Below, piece after piece: positions 33,241 to 63,439 of a DNA stretch of 64,000 nucleotides (positions within the stretch are counted from its first letter, which is position 1; the number at the start of each line of letters is the position of its first letter). This stretch comes from a virus. The stretch is from IMG/VR virus record IMGVR_UViG_3300036985_003583, positions 1 through 64,000 of that record; one strand, written 5' to 3'. The notes beneath the pieces were generated by a model, which did not search any database, had not been told where the DNA came from, and saw only the letters and a list, made by a program, of their open reading frames with translations. The position numbers and the translations under genes are program-made.

Positions 33241-33942
33241 CTAAACTTCTACTGAGTCAAAATTACCTTGATGGTCTACTTCCGCGTTACCTACTTTTCT
33301 CTTGGTCAGAACGTGAGCGAGCGTCCTCGCCCCGATCACCTGTAAACCTACATTCCAGCCTTCTCCAACGGTGCTAAGGTAAAGAGGATAGCCAATCAAG
33401 GTAAAAGCTAGAAACAGCTCCTCAAGGTTATAACGCTGCGTCAGAGCGCCGACGCCAATAGCGTCAAGAAAGTCCGGTAATTCCTCTGACGTAATCCGAC
33501 CCGGCAGTTTTGCCGTTGTGTAGATCGGGAGTCTGACAATCAAGAAACGGAACAAGTCAGCGTAGGTGTGCCAGCTCATATCGGGATATTTCGCGTTAGC
33601 TTCTACTACCATCTGTTTCATCTTAACAGGCTTGCTACGGCGTGAGAGGATTCTGTCTTTAAATATCGCCTCAAGATGCGCGTCCCAGAAGAACGGGCAA
33701 ACCAGAATAGACATAATCAAAGGTAGTAGCTCGGTTTCCGGCATAGCCGTGGTTACTTTAAATATCTGTTCACCTACGGGGAGCCGAAAAAAGATATCTG
33801 ATAATTCTTTCATTATCTCCCGGCTAGCGGGAGTTTCTTTGTACATTGAAATGTAACGCTCTAGGCTCATGCCAAAGTCTTGCTGTAATCTTTCAACGAT
33901 AGCTCCGGAGAGGTGCCGTGTTGGTTTTATATAAACGGTCAT
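33241..33942 (-). CDS. unknown 233-residue protein downstream of the HNH gene
   Basis: A helical, soluble-looking protein with basic patches (FKDRILSRRSKPVKMKQMVV). Its start codon lies inside the last codons of the HNH gene (AAGGAGATAATGGAATG), so translation is coupled to it. If the HNH gene is a later insertion, this gene was originally coupled to the SNF2-like helicase. That suggests a partnership in DNA metabolism, which is inference only. Confidence 0.55.
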   Translation of the reverse strand: MTVYIKPTRHLSGAIVERLQQDFGMSLERYISMYKETPASREIMKELSDIFFRLPVGEQIFKVTTAMPETELLPLIMSILVCPFFWDAHLEAIFKDRILSRRSKPVKMKQMVVEANAKYPDMSWHTYADLFRFLIVRLPIYTTAKLPGRITSEELPDFLDAIGVGALTQRYNLEELFLAFTLIGYPLYLSTVGEGWNVGLQVIGARTLAHVLTKRKVGNAEVDHQGNFDSVEV

Positions 33943-34766
33943 TCCATTATCTCCTTAATTATTTCTTCCTTCTGCAGCAGCAGCCATAGTATCTCAGTGT
34001 CATTAGCGTATCTCCAAGTAAGTCCGCAACATGTAGCCGCCTCTCCTTTGCAGCAATAAGCGATACCCGTTTGTTGTGTTTTATAGTGAGTGGCTGCAGC
34101 TAGGGAGGATTTAAAGTATTCACCTTTTGAATTGGCTACGGGTTTAAACTCTCTAGGTACAGAGTTCGCCGCCGGAATTTTTAATTTTCTGGGGAGAATG
34201 GTGTTCTCTCTAGTGGAATCAAATTCCCATGTAAGTCCTCCACAGATACGTCTTTTACCTGTACAGCAGTCAGAAATATGTGCCTGATTTAACCCCAGAC
34301 TCCTAGCTGCCTCAGCTGTGGATACAAAGCTCTCTCCTTTATTATTTATTACTGCTTTTCTCAATCCCTGTACGTATTCTACCTGTCTAGAGTCTTGTAT
34401 TTTATTGAAAATATTCTGCTCGATAAGGTATTTTCTATGCAGAATGGCTGCTTCCATCCCTAAAGCACTCGGGATTACGGATATATCGGGGATTCCCGTA
34501 TTGGCCCTATTTTCTTTTTGAGTCACTTCTCTTAGGTTGCACTTCCTATTATCCCATCTGCACCTATTGATATGATCTATCACTTTAGCGGGATCTGGGT
34601 ATTTAAGTATTAAGTGGCTCATTCTTACGGGCTTTCTTTTATGTTGGATAAACCACGCATATCCGAACGTCCCTTTCCACACTACCCCTTTTACTTTATC
34701 CCAGTCATCTGCATCTACACAGGCGAAGTTATCCTTCCCAAAATGTACCCACTTTATCTCAGTCAT
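33939..34766 (-). CDS. HNH homing endonuclease with a C-terminal tail copied from its neighbour
   Basis: Residues about 20-100 of this 275-residue protein are the HNH fold: VRMSHLILKYPDPAKVIDHI then NRCRWDNRKCNLREVTQKEN (H-x-N spacing typical of phage HNH enzymes). Two repeated DNA-recognition modules follow: EAARSLGLNQAHISDCCTGK and AAATHYKTQQTGIAYCCKGE, each ending in (C)CGLTW(R/E). Such freestanding endonucleases cut an uninserted allele and spread by repair. The last 14 residues (LLLQKEEIIKEIME) closely resemble the end of the adjacent upstream helicase. The ATG overlaps the helicase stop. Confidence 0.85.
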   Translation of the reverse strand: MTEIKWVHFGKDNFACVDADDWDKVKGVVWKGTFGYAWFIQHKRKPVRMSHLILKYPDPAKVIDHINRCRWDNRKCNLREVTQKENRANTGIPDISVIPSALGMEAAILHRKYLIEQNIFNKIQDSRQVEYVQGLRKAVINNKGESFVSTAEAARSLGLNQAHISDCCTGKRRICGGLTWEFDSTRENTILPRKLKIPAANSVPREFKPVANSKGEYFKSSLAAATHYKTQQTGIAYCCKGEAATCCGLTWRYANDTEILWLLLQKEEIIKEIME

Positions 34767-36039
34767 TCATCACCTCTTGGATTATAGCCTCCTTATTTAA
34801 AAGGATTCTGCTCACACGCGTATCAATTCCCGGCCTTACCAGTGTTACAACGCGGCACTTGCGGGTCTGTGTCATACGTCGGATACGTCCAACAGCCTGT
34901 GTATTCTTATGCGGTTCGTAGGATAAATCCATAAAGACAAGATGATTTGACCTTGTCAGGGTAATTCCAACGGAAGCGGAGCCAATGGTCGCAACAAGTA
35001 CATCAATTTCCCCAGCCTGGAATCTCTTTACAGTGTCATCCCGCTGAGCCATCGGGGTGTCACCACGGATATATGCACTATTTGGTATTGCGGCACAGAC
35101 CTCAAAGCAGCTTAATACGTGGTCTGTGAAAACAACTATCGGAAGATCTTGTGCTGCAATAGCATTCTTAACATATTCGATACAGTCGGGAGCCTTGGCA
35201 ATGGCTGCTTCCATCTTTAATGTTGCCATTGAAGTAGGCGTAGCCTCGCCAAGTTGGTACGCTTCCCAGCCTTTCTCGAGATTATCGTCAAGTTCCTGCA
35301 GCCGTTTCTTTTCCTTCGGCACTTGCGCCAGTTCTATTTCAGTGAAGATAACTTCTGGAAGATCCTCCAGATCAGCAAGCTTATGTTTGATGTAAGTTCC
35401 CTTCAGCCACAGCTTTAACGCCTCTGTATTCTTACTGCCTTCAAAGGTTGTTATTTCCCTTCCCGCAACTCGTTTCTTTACCATGTTAGCGAAGGTAAGG
35501 TTGAACGCCCACTGACTCTTAAACTTGAGGTTAAATCCTCTGCTCCGTATCGGCCCATAGTCTATCAACCGTAACGTGGAGTACAGTTCGGTAACTTTCC
35601 CTTTGAGGGGAGTTCCCGTCATTAATATAAGTCTACTCGGAACAAACTGTGATATGTGACTGTGTAGGGCTTTAGTCCTTCTCGCCGTCATCGTCAGAAA
35701 CATGTGAGATTCATCTACAACTACCGTGCCAACGCCGTGAAACAATTCGGGGCATTTATAGATCATGTCTGAAGAGATGATAATAACTCTACAGGATAAC
35801 TGCCCTTTGAAAGGGTAAATGACAGACTCGATACCAGCAAACTTTCTCAGCTCCTTCTGCCAATTCCGCGTCAGCAAGCTAGGACAGACAACGATAGCTC
35901 TCCCTGCATACTCTTTAATGAGGAGAATCGCACTCAGGGTTTTTCCGACTCCTGGCTCTGAGAAGCAAGCGCAGTAAGGGTTACTACGGAAGAACTCCAG
36001 TGCTTCTAGCTGATGAGGGAAAGGTATAAAGTCTGTCAT
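34759..36039 (-). CDS. SNF2-like superfamily 2 DNA helicase
   Basis: Starting at the ATG with GAGG five bases upstream, the 426-residue protein shows motif I EPGVGKT (28-34), Ia VVCPSLLTRNW (50-60), motif II DESH (109-112), motif III TGTPLKG (141-147). Near the C-terminus are motif V ATIGSASVGITLTRSNHLV and motif VI QAVGRIRRMTQ. This is the compact SNF2-type helicase common in phage replication modules. It uses ATP to translocate on duplex DNA and may act in replication fork restart or recombination. It ends ILLNKEAIIQEVMND, overlapping the HNH start. Confidence 0.85.
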   Translation of the reverse strand: MTDFIPFPHQLEALEFFRSNPYCACFSEPGVGKTLSAILLIKEYAGRAIVVCPSLLTRNWQKELRKFAGIESVIYPFKGQLSCRVIIISSDMIYKCPELFHGVGTVVVDESHMFLTMTARRTKALHSHISQFVPSRLILMTGTPLKGKVTELYSTLRLIDYGPIRSRGFNLKFKSQWAFNLTFANMVKKRVAGREITTFEGSKNTEALKLWLKGTYIKHKLADLEDLPEVIFTEIELAQVPKEKKRLQELDDNLEKGWEAYQLGEATPTSMATLKMEAAIAKAPDCIEYVKNAIAAQDLPIVVFTDHVLSCFEVCAAIPNSAYIRGDTPMAQRDDTVKRFQAGEIDVLVATIGSASVGITLTRSNHLVFMDLSYEPHKNTQAVGRIRRMTQTRKCRVVTLVRPGIDTRVSRILLNKEAIIQEVMND

Positions 36040-36046
36040 AACCACC

Positions 36047-36799
36047 TCAGCTAAAGAAAGGGTTTGGAAGCTTATTGGCGCCAAGGGTCAGAGACGTATC
36101 TGCAACCGCTACAACCAAAGCTTGGTTAACTTTTCCATTACGGCTGTAGATCCAGTGGCCGTTAGCAGCGTTAAGAGCGTCTTTGATCGAGGTAAGCATT
36201 GCAGGATTAGACTTCCAGTCAGGATTTGTCACGGCAATGGCGTCAACAATCTCTACCAACATGCTCTTGTTGGAACGATCAAACATCACATCAATATAGG
36301 TGACAGGCAGAGACTCGGTTGCTACGGTTTCTGTGTGCGCTACGTCGATAACATCTTTCGCTTTTGGTTTCGCCTTGGCTTTAGCTTTAGGTTTCTCTAC
36401 GACTTCAGGGATTATCACAGGATCAGGCGTTACAACTGGCTCTGGAGTTACGAACTTGTTGTGTTCTTCCTGAGTTATGGGTCGGAATCCCTTTGCCATC
36501 TCTGGAGTTATTTCTGGACATTCGTCACCTAAAGTAGGTGCTGTATCTTCAGAAGCAAAGACTTCCGGGTTTTTTGCTAAAACATCTTCCAAGCTACCTG
36601 CGAAGAGATCAGCGGCGTTTTCTTTACATGAGGCAACGAATCCCCTTAGTTTATCCGGAGCTGGCTTAGGCTCAAGAGGCATAAAGAACATATAGTCTTC
36701 TTCGCACTCATCATCTCCCGCCTTGCAGCTGCAGGTTATTGAGCATTTAATTACTGAAAGAAAGCTGTCCATTGCAAAACTTGCAACTTTAATCTTCAC
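36047..36799 (-). CDS. unknown protein with Lys/Ala linker upstream of the helicase
   Basis: A 250-residue protein starting at GTG (AAGGAG five bases upstream). The N-terminus has Cys-rich SVIKCSITCSCKAGDDECEE, which could bind metal. A Pro/Val stretch and a KPKAKAKAKPKAK linker lead to a C-terminal domain (TYIDVMFDRSNKSMLVEIVD, DALNAANGHWIYSRNGKVNQ). The linker suggests two domains, the second perhaps nucleic-acid-contacting. It is seven bases upstream of the helicase start. No family recognised. Confidence 0.5.
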   Translation of the reverse strand: MKIKVASFAMDSFLSVIKCSITCSCKAGDDECEEDYMFFMPLEPKPAPDKLRGFVASCKENAADLFAGSLEDVLAKNPEVFASEDTAPTLGDECPEITPEMAKGFRPITQEEHNKFVTPEPVVTPDPVIIPEVVEKPKAKAKAKPKAKDVIDVAHTETVATESLPVTYIDVMFDRSNKSMLVEIVDAIAVTNPDWKSNPAMLTSIKDALNAANGHWIYSRNGKVNQALVVAVADTSLTLGANKLPNPFFS

Positions 36800-36808
36800 G
36801 GTATCTCC

Positions 36809-37312
36809 TTAATTGCGTAATTTTTCACTAATTTTATTTGCCAGTTCAGTAAACTTAGAATTCCGTAGCTTCATATTTACGTGAGTTTCCAAGAAACTTG
36901 CCAATTCTATTGCGGTACGGGCTTCTGCTAATAGCTGCCTATATTCTTTCTCTCTCTCACAGGCTTCTAGTAGTTGTTTTGTCTGACGATTATCTCTGTC
37001 AATAAAGTTTTCGACTTCCCAATCCATCATTACTATTGGAAAGCTTACTGTTATAGTTTTTTCTTCTTTGCCAGATATGCGCGACTTAATAACTCCTTTG
37101 TCATATAAATCATTAAATAATCCTTGTGCTGTATCCATCTCTACCATTGTCACATATTGAACATAATCTTCTACATTTAGTGATAACAATACTTCTTCTG
37201 ATATAATTCTCGTCGCGTGATAGACTTTAGTTTTCTTGCCGATGTTGCAAAACTTTTCTTCGTCTTCTGTCATGCGAGGAGTTGGTTTAAGCAATGTAAC
37301 TTCATTACACAT
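36809..37312 (-). CDS. unknown 167-residue early protein
   Basis: The sequence begins MCNEVTLLKPTPRMTEDEEK. It contains a stretch resembling a small winged-helix-like module (DTAQGLFNDLYDKGVIKSRI) and ends in a long helix (AEARTAIELASFLETHVNMK). TAGGAGA lies ahead of the start. It is directly downstream of the hexanucleotide-repeat gene, and no family is recognised. Confidence 0.5.
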   Translation of the reverse strand: MCNEVTLLKPTPRMTEDEEKFCNIGKKTKVYHATRIISEEVLLSLNVEDYVQYVTMVEMDTAQGLFNDLYDKGVIKSRISGKEEKTITVSFPIVMMDWEVENFIDRDNRQTKQLLEACEREKEYRQLLAEARTAIELASFLETHVNMKLRNSKFTELANKISEKLRN

Positions 37313-37333
37313 AACTATTCTCCTATTAATTTG

Positions 37334-37621
37334 TTAGTTCCCGTTCCCGTACCCGTCCCCGTCCCCGCACCCGTTCCCGTACCCGTCCCCGTCCCCGTCC
37401 CCGTACCCGTTCCCGTTCCCGTACCCGCACCCGTTCCCGCACCCGTTCCCGCACCCGTTCCCGTCCCCGTCCCCGTACCCGTCCCCGTACCCGTCCCCGT
37501 ACCCGTTCCCGTTCCCGTACCCGTACCCGTTCCCGTTCCCGTCCCCGTTCCCGTCCCCGTACCCGTTCCTGTCCCCGAATATTAAAGAATCAAAATTTTC
37601 TCTTATATTTTGGTTTCCCAT
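37334..37621 (-). CDS. Gly-X repeat protein encoded by a hexanucleotide array
   Basis: The frame has a good start (GAGGAATTGAAATG) overlapping the end of the upstream gene. After 20 ordinary residues ([20 protein letters not shown]) it becomes Gly alternating with Tyr, Asn, Asp or Cys for about 38 pairs, then stops at once. Operon position, ribosome site and the stop placed exactly at the array end favour real coding. The product would be a flexible, hydrophilic chain. Because the repeat length is a multiple of three, all six frames are open, so coding is not proven; the opposite strand would read Pro-Val. Confidence 0.45.
37337..37578. repeat. hexanucleotide tandem repeat (CCCGTN), about 40 units
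   Basis: On the + strand the unit is CCCGT followed by T, A or C (never G), with several CCCGCA variants and one CCTGTC near the end. The first four bases are otherwise constant. The array is very C/G rich compared with its AT-rich flanks (TATTAAAGAATC and AATTTGTTAG). Units are mixed rather than in long identical runs, so this is not simply recent slippage. Confidence 0.95.
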
Positions 37622-60568: not shown

Positions 60569-61848
60569 GGCATTCTGAGGAAGAAGCGAGTTGTTCCACA
60601 GTTACCGTTTTTCAAGTATCTTTCTACTAATCCAACCTGTTGATTATGCAAAACTAGAGCAATATCTTCGGATTTTCTACTGACGAAGCAGAAAACATGA
60701 TCGATATTTGTATCGCTAGGGCCACTTACGCAAATATCGCCCAATTGCAGCTTAGATAAATCAGTAAATTTAACATAGTGTAGCGTCTGCATTGCATAAG
60801 TCACAAAGTGGTCAACGTTTATCGAAGGCGTTGATCCCAACACTGGAAACGGGAGTCCTGCTAACTTTAATGCAGAAGTTTGATGTGCTACACATGAGTT
60901 TTTTATTGCATTTGGAGAATATTTTGGAGTAAACCACCGTTCAACTTCTTTTCTAACTTCACCATAGTTGTTCTGGAAGTAATTAACAAAGACTTCTGCT
61001 GACGACTTCAACGAAGTCTTGGGAATCTCCCCGTATTTAGCCGGAAGCTCACAGAAAATTACTCTGGCTCTTGGAGCGCCAGCAGCGAGCGAAGATCTGT
61101 AGAACATTTCAATGCTACCATTTGTATCTAGATAACAAACGCATTTGCCGTTAGCGTCAAACCCGCGAGCGTCGGAGAAATCTGCAACGTTTATCCGCCA
61201 TTCTATAATCTCCCGCTCGTTTTTAGGTATCGTAGTAGGAGGTAAATGGCTAGTATCATTGCTACTTGTAGATAAGTCTGCACTTATTTCTCCAATGTTG
61301 ATTAGTGTTTTCAACATTGTAACACAGCCACACCGATTACTAACAGCGGTGGCGTCCCAAACGTGATCGGCGACGTAACGTCCCGGCTTCTGTACCGAAG
61401 TTCCTGCCCATACATATGGTGAAGGAACGTTATGTGGCTCATAGCCGAAACCGTTAAATTTCTCAAATAAATACAGTATCTTAGCGATCGACCAGTCTTT
61501 ATTTTCTGATAATTTATCGTAGTTTAGTGCGTCAATACAGGATTCTTCCCATGTAAAAGGAGGATTACCCGCTACTGGCCTTCCAGCAGGAACTTGTACT
61601 GTTCTGGCTTTTAACGGATCTCCGTTGTGCATGTGACGATCCCAATTACAGTCGGATTCCATCTGATGAATGCAGGCAATGACGTACCAAGGAACATTAG
61701 TTGCAACGGAAGCAGCCATATAACGCTTTTTATTCTTGATAAAAGCTAAGCAGTTCTTCTTTGCCGTAGCTTCTTTACAGGGAATAATATAAGCATTCTT
61801 CCACAGAGCTAAAATATCCGCTTTCTTTTCCTCGGTATACTGGCTCAT
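60565..61848 (-). CDS. two-domain endolysin (lysozyme-like plus papain-like amidase/peptidase)
   Basis: Residues about 50-175 of this 427-residue protein have IACIHQMESDCNWDRHMHNG, DPLKARTVQVPAGRP, NGFGY and SPYVWAG, then RYVADHVWD. This is a phage lysozyme-like domain with a likely catalytic Glu64 (HQMESD). The C-terminal part has KNSCVAHQTSALKLAGLPFP and LGDICVSGPS, NIDHVFCFVS, a Cys/His papain-like pattern as in CHAP or NlpC domains. The enzyme would cleave both glycan and peptide in peptidoglycan. AAGGGGG is upstream; the start overlaps the previous gene's end. Confidence 0.7.
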   Translation of the reverse strand: MSQYTEEKKADILALWKNAYIIPCKEATAKKNCLAFIKNKKRYMAASVATNVPWYVIACIHQMESDCNWDRHMHNGDPLKARTVQVPAGRPVAGNPPFTWEESCIDALNYDKLSENKDWSIAKILYLFEKFNGFGYEPHNVPSPYVWAGTSVQKPGRYVADHVWDATAVSNRCGCVTMLKTLINIGEISADLSTSSNDTSHLPPTTIPKNEREIIEWRINVADFSDARGFDANGKCVCYLDTNGSIEMFYRSSLAAGAPRARVIFCELPAKYGEIPKTSLKSSAEVFVNYFQNNYGEVRKEVERWFTPKYSPNAIKNSCVAHQTSALKLAGLPFPVLGSTPSINVDHFVTYAMQTLHYVKFTDLSKLQLGDICVSGPSDTNIDHVFCFVSRKSEDIALVLHNQQVGLVERYLKNGNCGTTRFFLRMP

Positions 61849-62063
61849 ATCTTCCCCCTTAATTCATTGAATCTGGCATCAAGTCTAGCTCTTGCCTCGG
61901 CATCTTTGACGCCAAGATCGGAGCTATCGGCGACTCCGGAAGAAATATTATGGATAGTGTCGAGCCATTGCTTGTTTAATTCTTCTCTTTTAGCTTCATT
62001 CTTTATATATTTATTGAGGAACCACAGTCCTATCTTAGCTAATAACGGAAGAAATATGGGCAT
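61845..62063 (-). CDS. small hydrophobic-start protein, holin or spanin candidate
   Basis: The 72-residue protein begins MPIFLPLLAKIGLWFLNKYI (amphipathic/hydrophobic), followed by a helical charged part (KNEAKREELNKQWLDTIHNI). It overlaps the endolysin start by four bases. Its ribosome site GGAG lies inside the last codons of the endonuclease gene. A membrane-active lysis role is inferred from position. Confidence 0.5.
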   Translation of the reverse strand: MPIFLPLLAKIGLWFLNKYIKNEAKREELNKQWLDTIHNISSGVADSSDLGVKDAEARARLDARFNELRGKI

Positions 62064-62065
62064 GG

Positions 62066-62719
62066 CTACTCCAATGGTGCGAGCGGTCTCACGGTGTGGT
62101 TAATAGGGGTGGAGAAAGCCCGCAGAAATCCCCAACCATTCTTTAATCGCATGTTAACAGCACACGGGTTTATTTTATAGAGGAACGACCACTCCGCTAA
62201 ACATTTTGTCTCCCCCTGATAAGTTATAAATTTTGTATTACTTTTATTTCTACTATTCTCTATAATTGAAGACCATTTACAATTTTCTTTTGAATACCCT
62301 TTATTATTATCTATTCTATCTAACCTCTTCAGATTACCTTTACTATCTAAGGTAATTTCTCCCATGTCTGTATAGAAATTATCAAACTTAAGCCAACTGT
62401 CGCATACCGATATTCCCCGTTTACCATACCATTTATAGTGACTATTATTAGAATCGGTACATCTTTTTATCATATTATACCACACGTAGTATACCTTAGT
62501 TCCCCCTTTTCCATGTGTTCTATGCCAGTCTGGACCATGACACCCGCAAGACTTAGACCTATTCCCAACTAATTGTGTATAGGCTACTTTTTTAATTGTG
62601 CCGCATTCACAAATACAGGTATAAAAGTATGACCTTTTAATTTTCTCTCGTGGGAGGTTACAGGTAGTCCAGTACCCGAATACTGTCATAGGAGGTAATA
62701 CTTTAGCAGGAGCAGGCAT
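62066..62719 (-). CDS. HNH-type homing endonuclease-like protein with borrowed C-terminus
   Basis: Start at the ATG with AAGGA six bases upstream (MPAPAKVLPPM). The 217-residue protein has a Cys-rich ribbon (YTCICECGTIKKVAYTQLVG, SKSCGCHG), then VYYVWYNMIKRCTDSNNSHY, KWYGKRGISVCDSWLKFDNF and RLDRIDNNKGYSKENCKWSS. This zinc ribbon plus 'KRC-WYGxRGIxVC-RIDNxxGYxxENCxW' pattern is that of phage HNH/AP2-type endonucleases. The last residues HTVRPLAPLE copy the end of the upstream lipoprotein (HTTRSLAPLE). An inverted repeat flanks the start. Confidence 0.75.
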   Translation of the reverse strand: MPAPAKVLPPMTVFGYWTTCNLPREKIKRSYFYTCICECGTIKKVAYTQLVGNRSKSCGCHGPDWHRTHGKGGTKVYYVWYNMIKRCTDSNNSHYKWYGKRGISVCDSWLKFDNFYTDMGEITLDSKGNLKRLDRIDNNKGYSKENCKWSSIIENSRNKSNTKFITYQGETKCLAEWSFLYKINPCAVNMRLKNGWGFLRAFSTPINHTVRPLAPLE

Positions 62720-62778
62720 CGCTTTTCCTTTCAAACGAAATTTTAGAAACTTCGCTCGACCTTGCGCAAGGAAAAGCG
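62720..62778. repeat. 11-bp inverted repeat plus 12-bp palindrome beside the endonuclease start
   Basis: CGCTTTTCCTT (62720-62730) pairs with AAGGAAAAGCG (62768-62778). The palindrome CCTTGCGCAAGG (62760-62771) overlaps the right arm. On the - strand this forms a hairpin covering the endonuclease ribosome site (AAGGAAAAGCG), which could lower its translation. It lies exactly at the border between the host gene end and the endonuclease ORF. Confidence 0.7.
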
Positions 62779-62797
62779 ACTATTCAATCTATCACAC

Positions 62798-63439
62798 TTA
62801 TTCGAGAGGGGCCAAACTTCTCGTGGTATGTCGATGATACGCCCCCGACTTTAGCCCGCGAAACAAGTATCCAGATTCTACTGTTCCCATGTAGTAAGTG
62901 CAAATGGCTCCGTCACAAACGATTGGGCTTGCGTCCTTCAACGGCTCAGCTATCACAGGCTCGTCAAAAACTATTCGGGTAATATCGCGGGAAGCGACCT
63001 GACAGACTGAAGCGCCGCCAACGCGCAGAGACTTTCGGTTGCACGTAACCCACGCTGGCAAGGTAACTTCTTCACCATAGAAATCTATGATTCCAAGTGA
63101 CATTGGTTGCTCTTTAGATGCAATAAATATCTTCATTATGCAGCGATCCTTCGTATCTTCTACGAAGTGAATTGGGTCATAGGTAAAAGAAAAGGGAGCT
63201 ACCGGATTTATAAATTCTGGGTGTCCAGCGCAGGTTGCGAAGACAATTCTTTCCGCCGTCTTGGGCAGAGTAGGCTTTATTATCTGAGTTTTCTTTCTAG
63301 GAATCGCAGCCATGCCAACATAATTAAGACCGTCTACGTTAAAAGCCAAAGTAGCCTCATTGGAAAACGTCTTAACTTCCTGCAATTGGGAAGCATTGCA
63401 ACCTACTAAAACCAGTAAAATTAGTATAAGTGACTTCAT
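62798..63439 (-). CDS. phage-encoded lipoprotein, unknown
   Basis: The 213-residue protein begins MKSLILILLVLVGCNASQLQ: a basic Lys, hydrophobic core and lipobox LVGC with Cys14. It should be lipidated and exported in a Gram-negative host. The mature part has several Cys (FATCAGHP, DRCIMK, VTCNRKS, SVCQV) and beta-like segments. It ends YHRHTTRSLAPLE, the motif duplicated in the endonuclease. Possibly a superinfection-exclusion or lysis-linked lipoprotein. Confidence 0.65.
   Translation of the reverse strand: MKSLILILLVLVGCNASQLQEVKTFSNEATLAFNVDGLNYVGMAAIPRKKTQIIKPTLPKTAERIVFATCAGHPEFINPVAPFSFTYDPIHFVEDTKDRCIMKIFIASKEQPMSLGIIDFYGEEVTLPAWVTCNRKSLRVGGASVCQVASRDITRIVFDEPVIAEPLKDASPIVCDGAICTYYMGTVESGYLFRGLKSGAYHRHTTRSLAPLE

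Follow-up and report, generated by a model that had tools for sequence, protein, structure and literature searches.

Why should the last ten residues of one phage protein reappear, written largely in other codons, at the end of the enzyme encoded next to it? The question is raised by positions 1-64,000 of the virus record IMGVR_UViG_3300036985_003583, a stretch of 64,000 nt that we analysed as a whole and refer to as the window. Near 62 kb a lipoprotein gene (62798..63439) is followed by a gene for an HNH endonuclease (62066..62719) that ends almost as the lipoprotein does, and a second endonuclease near 34 kb has the same relation to its own upstream neighbour; both loci lie on the minus strand. 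We consider it very probable, from the sequence comparisons below, that such pairs record the invasion of a gene, close to its end, by a homing endonuclease gene that supplied a diverged replacement for that end and left the native one on its far side.

The lipoprotein gene encodes 213 residues (start MKSLILILLVLVGC) and terminates in GAYHRHTTRSLAPLE, i.e. HTTRSLAPLE and a TAA stop (62798..62830; CAT ACC ACG AGA AGT TTG GCC CCT CTC GAA TAA). The endonuclease gene encodes 217 residues from an ATG at 62719, 78 nt downstream of the lipoprotein gene (mechanical calling of the open reading frame starts it at a TTG at 62734), to a stop at 62066-62068, and it terminates in RAFSTPINHTVRPLAPLE, i.e. 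HTVRPLAPLE and a TAG stop (62066..62098; CAC ACC GTG AGA CCG CTC GCA CCA TTG GAG TAG). The two ends agree at 8 of 10 residues and at 17 of 30 nucleotides, and both are in frame at their stops. Only the endonuclease copy holds the GGAG Shine-Dalgarno sequence (62069..62072) of the next gene, a 72-residue gene (61845..62063) whose ATG at 62063 follows the TAG after the two bases cc. The initial annotation had reported this match, its codons and the one-sided GGAG, and its readings are exact to the base. By analogy with the two sets of relatives described next, the present lipoprotein end probably came with the endonuclease, and the endonuclease tail is presumably the native lipoprotein end, displaced, fused in frame to the invader and still holding the ribosome-binding site of the next gene.

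Acinetobacter phages of the Obolenskvirus comparison, whose endonucleases are relatives of the 62-kb group, offer the layout with and without the insertion. In QH4 and KEN_01, both uninserted, the head-morphogenesis gene continues unbroken to PYQNN, its stop and TTTGTATTTTTAG. AP22, IME-Ap7 and YNAF share another order: a replacement end (LIIDIPETI and stop), a 66-nt spacer, an 807-nt HNH gene, the displaced end, and then the shared downstream DNA. Pairwise identity among these three is 96-98% in the replacement end, 98-100% in the spacer and 97-100% in the HNH gene, but 72-82% in the displaced end; moreover, the displaced ends of AP22 and IME-Ap7 match uninserted KEN_01 (42/45 and 53/58, respectively), and that of YNAF matches the allele of WCHABP1 (34/38), which has different cargo. 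On these alignments, the replacement end and the endonuclease move as one unit, and the displaced end is the recipient's own. Separately, WCHABP1 (L187), Cato (L188) and Abp95 (L189) carry other cargo after the head-morphogenesis stop (a Rha-family regulator, and open reading frames of 90 and 145 residues), and their gene ends differ; judged by sequence, the end of this gene is an insertion hot spot that reaches beyond HNH genes.

The single-stranded-DNA-binding-protein gene ssb of Lactobacillaceae shows the mirror image, at the start of the invaded gene, again with an endonuclease related to the 62-kb group. Two loci (L121 and L123) are identical at 648 of 652 nt of the insert and at 53 of 54 nt of the replacement ssb start, whereas their displaced starts agree at 46 of 53 nt and the DNA upstream at 45%; within the ssb body, identity declines from 98 to 50%. 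This is the pattern expected of an insert with a conversion tract at one flank and a sharp junction at the opposite flank. Here too the insert travels with the replacement, and the displaced start belongs to the host.

How general is the layout? HNH loci were taken from IMG/VR and bacterial genomes, giving 172 nonredundant phrog_374-like genes (the 62-kb gene included), or 173 with the 34-kb gene. An anchored test asked whether the C-terminus or N-terminus of a neighbour recurs on the far side of the endonuclease, with 649 genes of the same loci as controls. Copies scoring at least 40 were present at 8 of the 173 HNH genes and at 1 of the 649 controls; at a score of at least 45 the counts were five and none, and without both window cases the lower threshold still gave 6/171 (Fisher p=4e-4). 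These data support a layout that is general across phages and prophages, much as the initial annotation had proposed from two cases, and random neighbours do not match as often, a frequency that it had named as a possible objection. The anchored test replaced an initial six-frame, flank-to-flank survey (11 matches of at least 45 vs. 0.67 from mismatched loci), because a same-genome control (22/505) revealed that wrong, GC-rich frames inflate its statistic through matches of composition; L097, L250 and L252 were removed as tandem HNH paralogs.

Inspection added detail on both sides of the symmetry. C-terminal copies are seen at L043 (AGYAPNKN...GGGVSVRF against SYAPNKN...GAGIAIRF), L133, L142 and L093, and more weakly at L037 and L157; N-terminal copies are seen at the two ssb loci and at L012, L141, L153, L056 and L112. 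The HNH reading frame at L153:2902-3555 opens with the displaced native start of an AAA-ATPase gene (MFKKAERKQA), which mirrors the fused tail in the window, and this endonuclease may use the original translation start of the ATPase gene. Among 81 HNH_3/AP2 genes, L268 is the one clear case (VKHLEISFER and stop against KKHLEIKF and stop, with AAGGAGG and the following ATG after the latter), and L272 is a possible one. A search for relatives of the genes invaded at L043 and L037 gave only L091, ending GVGIKF, which shows the C-terminus of the family but not which copy is native.

The 34-kb locus belongs to a different endonuclease family (HNH_3 with an I-HmuI NUMOD-like part, as against phrog_374-like at 62 kb), and its layout is the same, in keeping with the earlier claim of a second, unrelated case. 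The endonuclease gene (33939..34766) ends in LLLQKEEIIKEIM, which copies the end ILLNKEAIIQEVMND of the upstream SNF2/DEAD-like helicase gene (34759..36084), and its tail contains an AAGGAG site for the downstream gene (33241..33942). Queries from both HNH families revealed no further HNH gene in the window, the helicase had no match in the record of the uninserted relative L001 (see below), and the 34-kb endonuclease, as sole query, had no IMG/VR relatives. Ten residues are a short match, and similarity by chance deserves consideration; however, when all gene neighbours in the window were compared blind, to see where the end of an upstream gene recurs close to the end of its downstream neighbour, the 34-kb HNH gene ranked first (score 50) and the 62-kb one second (41), with the third at 30, and together with the excess over the 649 control genes this leaves chance a negligible probability.

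The matched tail is an addition to the enzyme that carries it. The 62-kb protein, presumed to be a homing endonuclease, matches phrog_374 (E 5.3e-49) and phrog_3377 (2.9e-46) over the HNH core; it had no Pfam match and no PDB sequence match, and a PDB fold search gave nothing significant (a weak match to PacI, E 0.31). Its L004 homolog stops at RAFTTPIA, where the window protein runs on from RAFSTPI into NHTVRPLAPLE, and in an AlphaFold model with a predicted local distance difference test (pLDDT) score of 77, residues 209-217 fall below 50, i.e. the tail is predicted to be disordered. Because the homolog ends earlier and the model loses confidence there, the tail reads as an appendage past the usual HNH end. 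Could the shared C-terminus instead be a motif that serves both proteins, such as a localisation or degradation signal acquired by convergence or shuffling? The in-frame position of both window copies at their stops would suit such a motif, but the copies in AP22, L093 and L268 are out of frame with the endonuclease or past its stop, the motif differs from one target gene to the next, and a disordered tail is predicted; we regard this explanation as scarcely credible.

For the window itself, a sole uninserted relative was found, L001 in IMG/VR: its lipoprotein is 61% identical and ends in YHRHYCRGLRPIEK, and no endonuclease accompanies it. A second IMG/VR scan, with a two-sequence alignment, returned L001 again and nothing else, and the annotated phage records yielded no lipoprotein relative. 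Downstream of the L001 lipoprotein gene are small genes and then, a few positions on, a relative (35% identical) of the 72-residue gene of the window. Because L001 has a related end without the endonuclease, that kind of end is, on sequence grounds, a genuine part of the lipoprotein family; the unrelated end that the initial annotation had said would count against its proposal was not what L001 showed. Some observations nevertheless weigh against an imported end at this locus or against its wider application: L001 is the only uninserted relative of the window, at that level of protein identity and with different genes just downstream; over the ten codons its DNA shares 17/30 nucleotides with the lipoprotein copy and fewer, 10/30, with the endonuclease copy; the majority of the surveyed HNH genes have no such copy; and several surveyed cases (L037, L157 and L272) depend on short matches. 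L001 is too distant to tell directly which window copy is native.

In a rival history, insertion of the endonuclease gene duplicated the lipoprotein end on the spot, and the copies later drifted apart, with nothing imported. Such a duplication would give the same static picture, 17 identical nucleotides of 30 would fit long drift, and L001 discriminates weakly. It accounts poorly for the two sets of relatives: in Obolenskvirus the displaced ends match different alleles, and because the replacement ends are near-identical while the displaced ends are diverse, the copies are of separate origin; at ssb, likewise, a nearly invariant replacement N-terminus is shared by hosts with different displaced N-termini. 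We consider duplication in place unlikely, and the element in the window probably has the same imported-end history as its relatives.

The codon differences between the copies invite another reading. The initial annotation took one copy to be a recoding of the other and the whole to be a natural analogue of a cleave-and-rescue element. The two informative comparative sets speak against copying by recoding: in them the native end is the displaced one, and its counterpart came in together with the endonuclease from a lineage that had diverged. The two window copies use different codons at 6 of their 8 identical residues, where random choice among synonyms would give 5.75; over 16 cases, codons differ at 86 of 133 identical residues. 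Because these differences equal ordinary saturated divergence, nothing in the sequences points to selection for escape from the enzyme. A toxin-antidote form of the idea, in which selection favours a recoded second end because it spares the carrier and leaves uninserted competitors to be destroyed, would explain why an endonuclease is linked to a diverged end and why so many identical residues have different codons, and phage homing endonucleases do cause marker exclusion (PMC12724721). Against it stand the agreement with random synonym choice and the copying of the block between hosts, which is homing; we judge it very unlikely, more so than duplication in place.

What stands of the analogy is a nuclease linked to a gene end that differs in DNA and is kept in protein. 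Cleave-and-rescue destroys the uncut allele. The home-and-rescue drive HomeR is the better analogue, because it is copied into the gene that it cuts and brings a re-coded 3' end for it (PMC7968924). Like both designs, the phage element places a nuclease in a gene together with a 3' end whose altered DNA preserves function; the designs are engineered, Cas9-based and recoded on purpose, whereas here the divergence is natural and the cleavage putative.

We propose the following course of events. The mobile unit would extend from about 62830 to about 62098 and combine a replacement gene end with the free-standing gene of an HNH homing endonuclease. The enzyme would cut an uninserted lipoprotein gene approximately ten codons before its stop; the break would be repaired from a donor carrying lipoprotein and endonuclease genes in tandem, with strand entry through the homologous lipoprotein body; and the recipient would gain the donor gene end, the hairpin-bearing spacer and the endonuclease, the far side being joined at the cut. 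The lipoprotein would thereby retain a working C-terminus, its native last ten codons would become the tail of the endonuclease reading frame, and the native ribosome-binding site would stay ahead of the next gene. In the N-terminal mirror, the donor would give the downstream gene a new start, and the native start would be left upstream. The layout requires an intact gene that is not cleaved in the carrier; because that gene is contiguous again, immunity of the carrier to its own enzyme would have to come from the divergence of the gene end.

The spacer contains a hairpin (62719..62779) with perfect 12-nt arms (62719-62730 and 62768-62779), whose 3' arm AAGGAAAAGCGA holds the Shine-Dalgarno sequence of the endonuclease and the A of its start codon. 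Folding gave a minimum free energy of -33.8 (z -3.9) over 111 nt and of -30.3 (z -3.2) over 91 nt, and hairpins at the endonuclease ribosome-binding site likewise occur in AP22, IME-Ap7 and YNAF (z -3.3 to -4.5). The hairpin is predicted to sequester the ribosome-binding site. Since the lipoprotein reading frame is contiguous with its own stop codon, splicing is unnecessary, and the locus lacks the organisation of a group I intron or intein, although no RNA-family search was run.

Because insertion into a gene is costly, intergenic gaps are usually regarded as the only places open to free-standing homing endonucleases. A replacement gene end would lift that limit. We offer only tentatively, as rather less than an even prospect, the wider proposal that free-standing phage HNH genes are, as a widespread class, natural home-and-rescue elements; that a diverged gene end lets them colonise coding sequence as well as intergenic gaps and also makes carriers immune; and that gene ends are steadily swapped between lineages as a result. 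Our reading would explain the odd tails of phage endonucleases and the orphan gene fragments beside them, would make endonucleases agents of gene-end exchange, and would provide natural, long-tested examples of the home-and-rescue design; it also predicts the cut site of each enzyme from sequence, as the junction at which the displaced end begins.

A comparable layout is known from fungal mitochondria. The part of PMC3630166 on which we draw describes mobile endonuclease reading frames with displaced C-termini in Allomyces atp6 and in Glomus atp6, atp9, cox2 and nad3; the Glomus atp6 ends are 63.5% identical in nucleotides and 91% in amino acids, the native ends agree with those of relatives, and identity is 64-81% for the inserted ends. 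As there, the window has an endonuclease between two gene-end copies alike in protein and diverged in DNA, one of them putatively imported with synonymous changes and the other presumably native and displaced. The fungal cases in that part of the source concern LAGLIDADG or GIY-YIG enzymes, organelles and C-termini, whereas ours concern HNH enzymes, phages and prophages, and N-terminal mirrors as well; unlike them, the native end here is often fused in frame to the endonuclease together with the ribosome-binding site of the next gene, and a hairpin is present at the endonuclease ribosome-binding site. The seg and mob genes of T4 and mobE of Aeh1 resemble the window in being free-standing endonuclease genes in operons, with such hairpins at mobE, segB and I-TevI, but they lie between genes or split a gene, and the portion of PMC2988022 that we cite does not describe replacement and displaced native ends. 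In phage ShiLan, another HNH insertion in coding sequence, the first 11 residues of a methylase insert resemble the 11 that follow the insertion site while DNA similarity is lower, for which its authors considered an intron-like signature (PMC11855218). Translation of the methylase continues in frame through that insert, unlike the one in the window, but the 11-residue similarity (PMC11855218, section 3.1) fits a replacement end, and the insertion may be an internal form of the same event. In the open-access literature, to which the search was confined, we found no account of a displaced gene end beside a free-standing phage endonuclease; as far as that literature shows, the free-standing phage form is new and the layout itself is not.

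Two minor observations complete the analysis. At L043, the interval that separates the replacement end from the HNH gene (2700-2966) includes a hairpin resembling an intrinsic terminator, with its T run, and a small open reading frame that by eye is like a ribbon-helix-helix regulator; this cargo may bring its own regulation. Positions 37217-37621 of the window form a low-complexity repeat with overlapping open reading frames, reading as VP runs on the plus strand and as GNG/GDG on the minus strand.
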